33,329 nucleotides of DNA from a virus: positions 1 through 33,329 of the IMG/VR virus record IMGVR_UViG_3300020061_000019; one strand, given 5' to 3'. Below the pieces are notes generated by a model, which was not told where the DNA came from, searched no databases, and saw only the letters and a list, made by a program, of their open reading frames with translations. The stretch's first letter is position 1, and every line of letters starts with the position of its first letter. Below are positions 31,912 through 33,133 of the stretch, in pieces. The translations under genes and the position numbers were made by a program.

Positions 31912-31929
31912 GGACCCCAGAATAGACCC

Positions 31930-31959
31930 AAACCCGGCCTCCTTGGGAAGACCGGGTTC
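31930..31959 (-). terminator. Rho-independent-type terminator after the small-gene pair
   Basis: On the minus strand AACCCGGTCTTCC pairs with GGAGGCCGGGTT around a CCAA-like loop, giving about 12 bp with two G-T wobbles. The sequence after it, TTTGGGTCTATT, is moderately T-rich. It lies just after the 44-residue gene, as expected for a terminator. Confidence 0.6.
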
Positions 31960-31975
31960 GGCAGGGTTGCCAGAT

Positions 31976-32198: not shown

Positions 32199-32411
32199 TT
32201 ACACCGCGACAGGAAGCACGGTCTTGTGCGGGCGCTTGATGCGCAGCTTGTGCACATGCATGACCCGGGGGTTGCTGATCGTCAGCGGCGGTTCGAAAGT
32301 CGCCGAGTCGACCCAGTCCTGCCAATCAAGATCAGGGTTCTTGTCCTGGACGAGGACACGCTGGTCCGCGCCGCTCTCGCGGTCGGCCAGGGTCACCAAG
32401 TAGGTGTCCAT
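32199..32411 (-). CDS. Small phage protein (70 aa) in late operon
   Basis: ATG 32411 has GGAG six bases upstream and is chosen over GTG 32423. The protein starts MDTYLVTLADRESGADQRVL and contains a central Trp-rich acidic part (NPDLDWQDWVDSATFEPPLT). The C-terminal part is basic (MHVHKLRIKRPHKTVLPV). It looks like a small alpha/beta protein, but no family is recognised. It lies between the hairpin array and the 44-residue gene. Confidence 0.65.
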   Translation of the reverse strand: MDTYLVTLADRESGADQRVLVQDKNPDLDWQDWVDSATFEPPLTISNPRVMHVHKLRIKRPHKTVLPVAV

Positions 32412-32522
32412 GCTGGTCTCCACTTCTGCTTGAGGTCTCTGTTGAGTCCTCTATAGCTTCATTGTGGGTCTTCCCGCATGGAAACGCAAGCAAACATGCT
32501 GTGATGTCCCTGTCAGATGGAA

Positions 32523-32561
32523 GGACGGGCCTACAGTCGTCGAGTGACTGCAGGCCCGTCC
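32523..32561 (-). terminator. Long GC-rich hairpin, possible terminator
   Basis: GGACGGGCCT and AGGCCCGTCC form a perfect 10-bp outer stem, extended internally by CAGTC/GACTG. On the minus strand it is followed by TTCCATCT, a weak T-tract. It may end transcription or act as an RNA-stabilising element. Confidence 0.5.
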
Positions 32562-32572
32562 GGGGGTAGTTC

Positions 32573-32658
32573 GGGATGCGAATCCCTCACCTCCACCATT
32601 TCCCACCCACTGGGAAAATTGTGCGCCCGAAGGCGTCAAGACCAGTCTAGCTGGTCTT
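32573..32658 (-). other. Run of four short hairpins (structured RNA candidate)
   Basis: In minus-strand order: AAGACCAG/CTGGTCTT (32638-32658, 8 bp); CGCC-TTCG-GGCG (32624-32635, a UUCG tetraloop); TTTCCCA/TGGGAAA (32599-32617, 7 bp); GGGAT/ATCCC (32573-32586, 4-base loop). With the long hairpin that follows, five stems fill about 136 bases. Such density in noncoding DNA suggests a structured RNA or stacked terminators. Confidence 0.5.
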
Positions 32659-32662
32659 ACTA

Positions 32663-33133
32663 CTACTGGCCGGGATCTACCGGCGGGTCGACCGGAGGCT
32701 CTACGACCGGCGGTGCCGAGACGGCGTCGAATGCCGCCTGCAGCTTGGTGGCCAGGGCCTCGCTCAGCGCGTTGGCCTGGGCCGCGTCCTCGGCGGCGTC
32801 AGTGTCGCGCAGGGTCTGCGCGTCAGCCAATGCTGCCGCGAGTGCGGTCTTGATGTTCTCGGACCACGCGGTCCAGCTGGCGATGACTTCGTCTTCGCGT
32901 GCCATGTTGACTCCTAATTTTTCGAATAGATGAAGGGCGGCGAAGGTAGTACGCCCTAGACCGAGCACTACCCAACGGGCAATTCGGCTCATGACGCCTC
33001 CTCTGTCCTCACTGATTTGTGTCCGATCTCCCCACAATTGCAGGCCCGGAGAACCCGGACTGGGGACGAACACTAGGACAACGAGTACCGCCAAAACGAT
33101 GACGCCAAACAAAACTGCCAGCTCAATCGTCAT
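32663..33133 (-). CDS. Membrane-anchored ORF with three in-frame start sites
   Basis: One open frame contains three starts without any stop between them. ATG 33133 (157 residues) opens a transmembrane helix (MTIELAVLFGVIVLAVLVVL) but has a poor ribosome binding site. ATG 32992 has GGAGG 4-5 bases upstream and opens MSRIARWVVLGLGRTTFAAL, which is amphipathic. ATG 32905 has AGGAG five bases upstream and gives an 80-residue Ala-rich helical protein ending in a Pro/Val tail. The first ATG overlaps the upstream stop. Either three products share a C-terminus, or formerly separate genes are fused. A holin-like or scaffold-like role is speculative. An annotator might call only 32663-32905. Confidence 0.6.
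   Translation of the reverse strand: MTIELAVLFGVIVLAVLVVLVFVPSPGSPGLQLWGDRTQISEDRGGVMSRIARWVVLGLGRTTFAALHLFEKLGVNMAREDEVIASWTAWSENIKTALAAALADAQTLRDTDAAEDAAQANALSEALATKLQAAFDAVSAPPVVEPPVDPPVDPGQ

Follow-up and report, generated by a model that had tools for sequence, protein, structure and literature searches.

Several phage-encoded RNAs are described as acting on the genes of the phage that makes them. In the available text of PMC12197685, the c4 antisense RNA of phages P1 and P7 is a structured molecule whose complementary sequence probably lies in loops, and it pairs around the ribosome-binding site and blocks translation. In the same text, the sar RNA of P22 and the OOP and aQ RNAs of lambda work by base pairing, on genes of the phage itself. 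As far as these accounts go, c4 has one target mRNA (ant) and controls immunity, and sar, OOP, and aQ are each described with one target mRNA. SdhX, in the available text of PMC6393394, is a processing product of a long operon's 3' end and regulates other mRNAs. Control by short intergenic motifs is also described in mycobacteriophages, where the stoperators of cluster A phages are a short one-directional motif repeated in intergenic regions (available text of PMC3029335).

Here we analyze a hairpin array in a 33-kb IMG/VR virus fragment (IMGVR_UViG_3300020061_000019; all 33,329 nucleotides are referred to as the window). Like c4, the RNA that we propose would be phage-encoded, structured, and able to pair around ribosome-binding sites. 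Unlike c4, one of its loops matches 7 to 26 leaders per genome, the array sits at the end of a late operon, and the window has no Rfam match; a short loop seed common to many leaders also separates it from sar, OOP, and aQ as these are described. With SdhX it would share an origin at the 3' end of an operon and action on other mRNAs. SdhX, however, is Hfq-dependent, and no Hfq is known in mycobacteria. Stoperators are DNA sites for a repressor; the cluster A phage Blue7 has the TTGACACCCAC form, which the leaders of the cluster C-like phages lack. A search by title and abstract, mostly of literature outside subscription journals, found no regulatory RNA of cluster C phages.

Five hairpins lie in a gap between two genes of a cluster C-like phage

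The window derives from a Ceeclamvirinae-like phage that is kin to mycobacteriophage cluster C. Its nearest named relatives within Ceeclamvirinae are Bixzunavirus (Tonenili and Dandelion), which we take to be cluster C1, and Myrnavirus (Myrna, Phabba, and ScoobyDoobyDoo), which we take to be cluster C2. PHROGs matches in the window include baseplate, tape-measure, sheath, endonuclease VII, and head-decoration-like genes. A preliminary description of this DNA reported five consecutive stems at 32523–32658, and all five are present there and were correctly described on the gene (minus) strand. The features of the locus, in the order of the minus strand, are as follows.

32663..32905, minus strand: upstream gene, an 80-aa ORF with its start put at ATG; the array follows its 3' end
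32638..32658, minus strand: H1, an 8-bp hairpin, lineage-specific, its sequence and position not conserved in relatives
32624..32635, minus strand: H2, a 4-bp hairpin with a UUCG tetraloop on the gene strand, lineage-specific
32599..32617, minus strand: H3, a 7-bp hairpin with an invariant GUGGG(U) loop, the proposed seed for CACCCAC leaders
32562..32598, minus strand: H4, an irregular helix with an inner 5-bp stem at 32573–32586 and partial outer pairing
32523..32561, minus strand: H5, a long G+C-rich stem-loop of 10+6 bp, terminator-like
32461..32489, minus strand: promoter-like site TTGCGT-N17-CACAAT, read from the sequences
32450..32455, minus strand: TATAGA, conserved shortly past CACAAT, an alternative −10 element
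32199..32423, minus strand: downstream gene phrog_2997, 74 aa (PHROG E 2.9e-23), function unassigned

Because both neighbours are encoded on the minus strand, the array is on the strand that is transcribed, and its hairpins would be read in the order H1, H2, H3, H4, H5. PHROG and Pfam searches with the upstream gene gave no match, and it is weakly alike in relatives (15–20% identity); the phrog_2997 gene is the first gene past the promoter-like site and was aligned with 10 relatives. The earlier placement of the array between head and fibre genes is only loosely right, with a head-decoration homologue ∼1.3 kb downstream of the array and two direct neighbours that both lack an assigned function.

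The segment 32523–32658 folds at −72.9 kcal/mol compared with −46.7 ± 4.2 for shuffled sequence (z −6.26), and none of 200 shuffles folds as well (plus strand folded), in agreement with the structured RNA candidate of the preliminary description. Most of this signal comes from H5. When H3 and H4 of the window were folded alone on the gene strand, z was −1.33 and 31 of 300 shuffles were as good; because this energy is near that of the shuffles, the proper support for H3 comes from covariation and that for H4 from conserved position only. In C1, the opposite strand of H3–H4 folds better than the gene strand (Tonenili, z −4.66 versus −1.78; Dandelion likewise). The strand of the array was assigned from gene direction, the terminator-like H5, and the tetraloops, and was not chosen by energy.

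Rfam gave no match at the gathering threshold in the window or in the loci of eight relatives, and a single microRNA match in the window at E ≤ 10, far under its cut-off, was discarded as chance. Inspection by eye revealed no conserved pseudoknot linking the H3 loop to other parts of the gap, and ARAGORN called no tRNA or tmRNA genes in the window. The opposite strand of H4 (32562–32598, plus strand) resembles a tRNA acceptor stem and T-arm ending in CTCCACCA that ARAGORN does not call; the likeness is also seen in C1 (L004:26895-26945 and L003:3040-3085), and the C2 phages are without it.

The array could be a phage Y RNA, the partner of the Ro60-like (TROVE) protein that these phages make. 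The Tonenili genome has a gene for a TROVE/vWA_Ro60 protein, mimicry of tRNA is known among bacterial Y RNAs, and part of the opposite strand of the array has the tRNA-like character just described. A Y RNA is defined, however, by a long stem that joins its 5' and 3' ends, whereas the folds give separate adjacent hairpins with no closing stem, and the TROVE gene of Tonenili is >70 kb away. We regard a Y RNA as extremely improbable.

H3, H4, and H5 are conserved in related phages

Homologues of the gap were located by DNA similarity, by searches with two genes (the head-decoration gene and the gene downstream of the gap), and with a single exact DNA pattern. The hairpin array is found in the homologous gap of eight relatives whose genomes were covered in full or almost in full, and further records have it as well. 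The gap was identified in Tonenili, Dandelion, Cane17, Breeniome (L008), Myrna, Phabba, and ScoobyDoobyDoo and in five IMG/VR contigs (L006, L007, L011, L021, and L061), and 13 gap sequences, that of the window included, were compared side by side. The C1 form matches 190 phage records, which add little independent information because nearly all are at least 95% identical. A BLASTN search of phages with the array of the window returned only chance matches, which indicates that the array is conserved in structure and not in sequence. Gordonia phage Pupper (L014), its relative L062, and the fragment L009 lack the array, and all three keep the downstream gene. In Cane17, gene 101 (L016:2253-2459) is annotated across the array; this is probably a spurious ORF, as the gap is empty in the Dandelion and Tonenili records.

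The conserved core of the gap consists of H3, H4, and H5 followed by the promoter-like site, and H1 and H2 differ between lineages. The order H3–H4–H5 is kept in 11 of 11 folded sequences, the sequences themselves differing, and each of the 11 has a helix at the H4 position, again with different sequences. C2 relatives have a GNRA-capped hairpin (GAAA, GCAA, or GGAA) after H3, at a different place from H2 of the window; these loops and the UUCG of H2 read correctly on the gene strand, and the C2-like member L021 has neither kind.

Compensatory change in the stems, on which the structured RNA of the preliminary description depended, is present in H3: five of its seven pairs are changed on both sides and none on one side only. 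Over the seven rows compared, 95.7% of cells are paired and the loop GUGGGU is invariant. In controls with the register slid, 51–75% of cells are paired (maximum 74.5%) and at most two pairs carry a double change.

An H3 model was then searched in 13 records. The window, itself one of the rows from which the model was built, matches at 37.4 bits, and in each record with a known H3 the gap copy scores highest, the other matches being weak; these gap matches are not independent proof because most of the records are building rows or their close kin. Matches outside the gap, several of them antisense to leaders, were read as chance. The contigs L006 (2672-2678) and L007 (2408-2414; positions approximate) have a second GUGGGU just upstream of H3, and two seeds may exist there.

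Based on the covariation of H3 and the recurring order of H3, H4, and H5, it is well supported by comparison that the gap encodes a conserved structured RNA. This is the part that held of an earlier choice among a stable noncoding RNA, a processing site, and a multi-hairpin terminator. Two findings go beyond that account: only H3, H4, and H5 are conserved, and the H3 loop has its complement in a motif that recurs in the leaders of many other genes of these phages.

H5 is terminator-like and is followed by a promoter-like site

The arms of H5 are 16 nt long and 94% complementary, and a similar G+C-rich stem is present in all 11 folded sequences. Of the proposed multi-hairpin terminator, a terminator role would fit H5, though the U-tract in the window is poor, with only UUCC after H5 (more U follows in Myrna and Dandelion), and a simple terminator scan of the window did not list H5. 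The window also has a terminator-like site with a 15-pair stem at 31928–31961 (minus strand), within the endonuclease VII ORF as listed.

After H5, the pattern TTGCnn-N17-nACAAT followed by TATAGA is shared by the window, C1, C2, and the L006 group, and Pupper has a looser form with CACACT. The pattern ACAAT-N3-6-TATAG has a single occurrence in 10 of the 13 records searched and two in G002, and it is missing from G006 and G007; the lone match in Pupper lies away from this site and on the opposite strand. The suggestion that the array lowers expression between head and fibre genes gains no specific support, given the promoter-like site behind the array. In L007, a 90-aa ORF (2549-2821) stands between the terminator-like H5 and the promoter-like site and splits an otherwise contiguous gap.

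The H3 loop is complementary to a motif beside Shine-Dalgarno sequences

Weak matches to the H3 model, elsewhere in whole genomes and antisense to gene leaders, led to the motif CACCCAC, which is the exact complement of GUGGGUG in H3. On the gene strand the leaders are laid out as CACCCAC, Shine-Dalgarno sequence, and start codon. The distance from motif to Shine-Dalgarno core has a median of 5 nt and is at most 12 nt in 109 of 131 cases. Leaders were counted with a second, codon-trained gene caller, as the first caller picked many antisense ORFs; with the first, phage BPBiebs31 appeared enriched, at 5 sites (z 4.0), and Blue7 showed no enrichment, and with the second they had 1 and 13 sites.

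CACCCAC is present in the leaders of 134 of 1563 genes in the eight H3 genomes and in 0 of 445 in the two nearest kin that lack H3 (Fisher p 1e-15, on gene counts that are not independent), a comparison that represents ∼3–4 lineages and not eight independent genomes. The window (0 of 34 genes, from the structural region) and G005 (1 of 16), both fragments, were left out of this count, and Limpid was excluded from the conclusions because only 33 of its genes were called. The reverse orientation, GTGGGTG, occurs in 7 of the 1563 leaders. Each H3 genome has 7 to 26 genes with CACCCAC leaders, mostly outside the block of structural genes; in Tonenili, 12 of 61 annotated starts at 9–31 kb have the motif compared with 1 of 47 in the structural block.

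The core hexamer ACCCAC was also compared with coding background and ranked among 4096 hexamers. Leaders of the C1 phages Tonenili (29 versus 2.3) and Dandelion (32 versus 2.6) had it at rank 5, Myrna (34 versus 2.9) at rank 2, and Scooby (38 versus 1.8), G001 (25 versus 1.45), and G002 (22 versus 2.0) at rank 1; it ranked 4 in G003 (11 versus 1.6) and 26 in G004 (12 versus 2.7). ACCCAC was not enriched in the leaders of Pupper (2 versus 1.8 expected), G006 (3 versus 2.3), Dorin (2 versus 1.6), BPBiebs31 (1 versus 0.56), or Trike (0 versus 0.6), and was slightly raised in Kabocha (3 versus 0.7). The excess outlasts shuffles that keep the dinucleotides of each leader, with ACCCAC first or second among the 64 A/C hexamers in six H3 genomes and fourth and sixth in the remaining two. 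The signal is weak in G004 (7 of 251 leaders), and in G003 leaders ACCACC exceeds ACCCAC.

In Scooby and Myrna, many leaders with the motif come after CTGTAG and TATAGT or TATACT, a sequence resembling a phage promoter element. Phage tRNAs as an alternative partner of the leaders were rejected: GTGGGT is found in none of the tRNA/tmRNA records of Tonenili (0 of 33) or Dandelion (0 of 34) and in 2 of 36 in Myrna and 2 of 34 in Scooby, where it stands before TTC and looks like part of a T-arm; ARAGORN returned no tRNA or tmRNA records for G002 and Pupper.

The array could act only in cis, as a multi-hairpin 3' end in which H5 terminates transcription and H3 and H4 protect the late mRNA or bind a protein through GUGGGU, the match to leaders being coincidental. 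Stable stems ahead of terminators are common in 3' untranslated regions, and the long G+C-rich stem of H5, followed by a promoter-like site, recurs in all 11 folded sequences, as a cis-acting 3' end would have it. A coincidental match is at odds with a scan in which every hexamer of the gap was compared with the leaders of its own genome: the H3 loop came first in six of the eight genomes and second in two, G004 being one of the latter. It is also at odds with the finding that motif and H3 are present or absent together in the clade. A purely cis-acting role is, in our estimate, rather unlikely. From these comparisons, there is a strong computational case that the H3 loop would pair with the CACCCAC leaders.

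The same short word occurs in a cluster A phage and might pair with 16S rRNA

Blue7 (NC_023713, cluster A) has 13 ACCCAC versus 1.1 in its leaders and CACCCAC in 11 of 92 leaders, and the H3 model has no match in this genome at E ≤ 1. In nine of the 11 CACCCAC leaders the motif is part of TTGACACCCAC, a stoperator-like DNA site that nearly matches the complement of the L5 stoperator consensus GGTGGMTGTCAAG (given in the available text of PMC3029335). The Blue7 leaders with CACCCAC are thus mostly TTGACACCCACC stoperator-like, and the same short word appears there in what is probably a DNA-level system.

CACCCAC in the cluster C-like phages might likewise be the DNA site of a phage-encoded regulator, with an accidental match to H3. 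Blue7 provides an example of such sites near starts in another phage group, and stoperators are one-directional in the available text of PMC3029335. Against a DNA site, no CACCCAC leader in the eight H3 genomes has the TTGA extension, the sites lie tightly before the Shine-Dalgarno sequence, and the double changes in the H3 stem argue for RNA. This origin of the motif is very improbable.

A further proposal is that CACCCAC is a translation enhancer or an unstructured A/C-rich spacer, possibly acting through 16S rRNA and unrelated to H3. Kin that lack H3 also use A/C-rich leader words such as CAACAA, with CAACAA repeats in Pupper, so A/C-rich leaders appear to be a wider habit. Actinobacterial 16S rRNA presumably holds GGTGGGTACTAGGTGTGGG, which was found without mismatch in one of three draft genomes searched and could pair with ACCCAC. 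It could not pair with the preceding C, which the leaders prefer: C stands before ACCCAC at 73–92% of leader sites compared with 50–58% in coding sequence, a preference that fits GUGGGUG of H3 and not the 16S copies, the first of which continues with A and the second, we assume, with U. Moreover, CACCCAC is in 0 of 385 host leaders (a 400-kb sample of one Mycolicibacterium genome) and in 1 of 146 leaders of BPBiebs31 and Trike, which infect M. smegmatis. We consider a motif unrelated to H3 decidedly unlikely, and pairing with the H3 loop remains the reading that we pursue below.

Some predicted targets are shared between lineages, and loop flanks differ

By reciprocal best hits, Tonenili and Myrna share 5 targets versus 0.55 expected (p 9e-6), Tonenili and G002 share 4 versus 0.49 (p 2e-4), and Dandelion and Myrna share 6 versus 0.80; many other genome pairs share none. 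The motif is found in at least two lineages in 11 of 92 target groups, one of which, a group of G001 and G004, has no motif in its leader stretch and looks like chance or a mis-started gene. Predicted targets in more than one lineage include phrog_2930, two phrog_1362 proteins, a Ro60-like TROVE protein, a ThyX-like protein, DUF7242, and a DnaE-like polymerase. The TROVE/Ro60-vWA protein (Pfam PF05731 and PF25045) lies at 134086-135744 in Tonenili (L092:14086-15744), and its leader has CACCCAC in C1 and C2.

The base after GUGGGUG in H3 is A in C1 and G in C2 and the L006/L007 group. C precedes CACCCAC at 82 of 99 sites in C2 plus the L006/L007 group versus 20 of 56 in C1, and T, the base predicted for C1, at 10 of 99 versus 16 of 56; in C1, A is as common as T at this position. 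A double-centred test of duplex energy gave an advantage to a lineage's own seed (p 0.0002 by permutation, over three lineages), and in absolute energy even the C1 leaders form their stronger duplexes with the C2 seed. These results are suggestive only of co-adaptation between the loop flank and the leader element in different lineages.

A proposed RNA from the 3' end of the late operon

The reading that we favor, and hold to be somewhat probable, is that a structured RNA is made from the 3' end of the late operon and that its H3 loop pairs with the leaders of non-structural, probably early genes and likely represses them. The structured RNA would be encoded at the 3' end of the late (head) operon, where its structure is conserved by comparison. 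Transcription of the gene strand would pass H3 and H4 and probably end at H5, after which a putative new promoter would start the next transcription unit. The H3 loop would offer GUGGGU as a seed, and in the relatives this seed is predicted to pair in trans with CACCCAC ∼5 nt upstream of the Shine-Dalgarno sequence. The comparison itself establishes the complementarity, the placement beside the Shine-Dalgarno sequence, and the joint presence or absence of motif and H3.

Such pairing would block loading of the 30S subunit, so the RNA would most likely help to turn off early genes once the late operon is on. The genes affected would most likely be of the DNA-metabolism type; repression is more likely than activation, and the genes are called early from their position outside the structural block. 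For the phage of the window, the target side is deduced from its relatives because its own early genes lie outside the contig.

A fuller version, which we put forward tentatively and rate as somewhat short of probable, is an RNA-level switch from early to late expression in this actinobacteriophage group. The 3' end of the head operon would free a small RNA, and its GUGGGU loop would act through CACCCAC to silence a set of early genes as one regulon; the loop flank and leader would have co-evolved between lineages. The Ro60-like, ThyX-like, and DnaE-like genes are candidates for this regulon.

The array may therefore be a small RNA by which the phage controls its own genes. If so, transcription of the late genes would by itself produce the RNA that stops early genes from being translated, by way of one common leader word, and the occurrence of CACCCAC before the Shine-Dalgarno sequence in many leaders of these phages would be explained. 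Mycobacteriophages would gain a phage-encoded regulatory RNA with a defined seed and a target list, and a simple RNA switch on the scale of a regulon would be at hand in a well-collected phage group (190 phage records of the C1 form).
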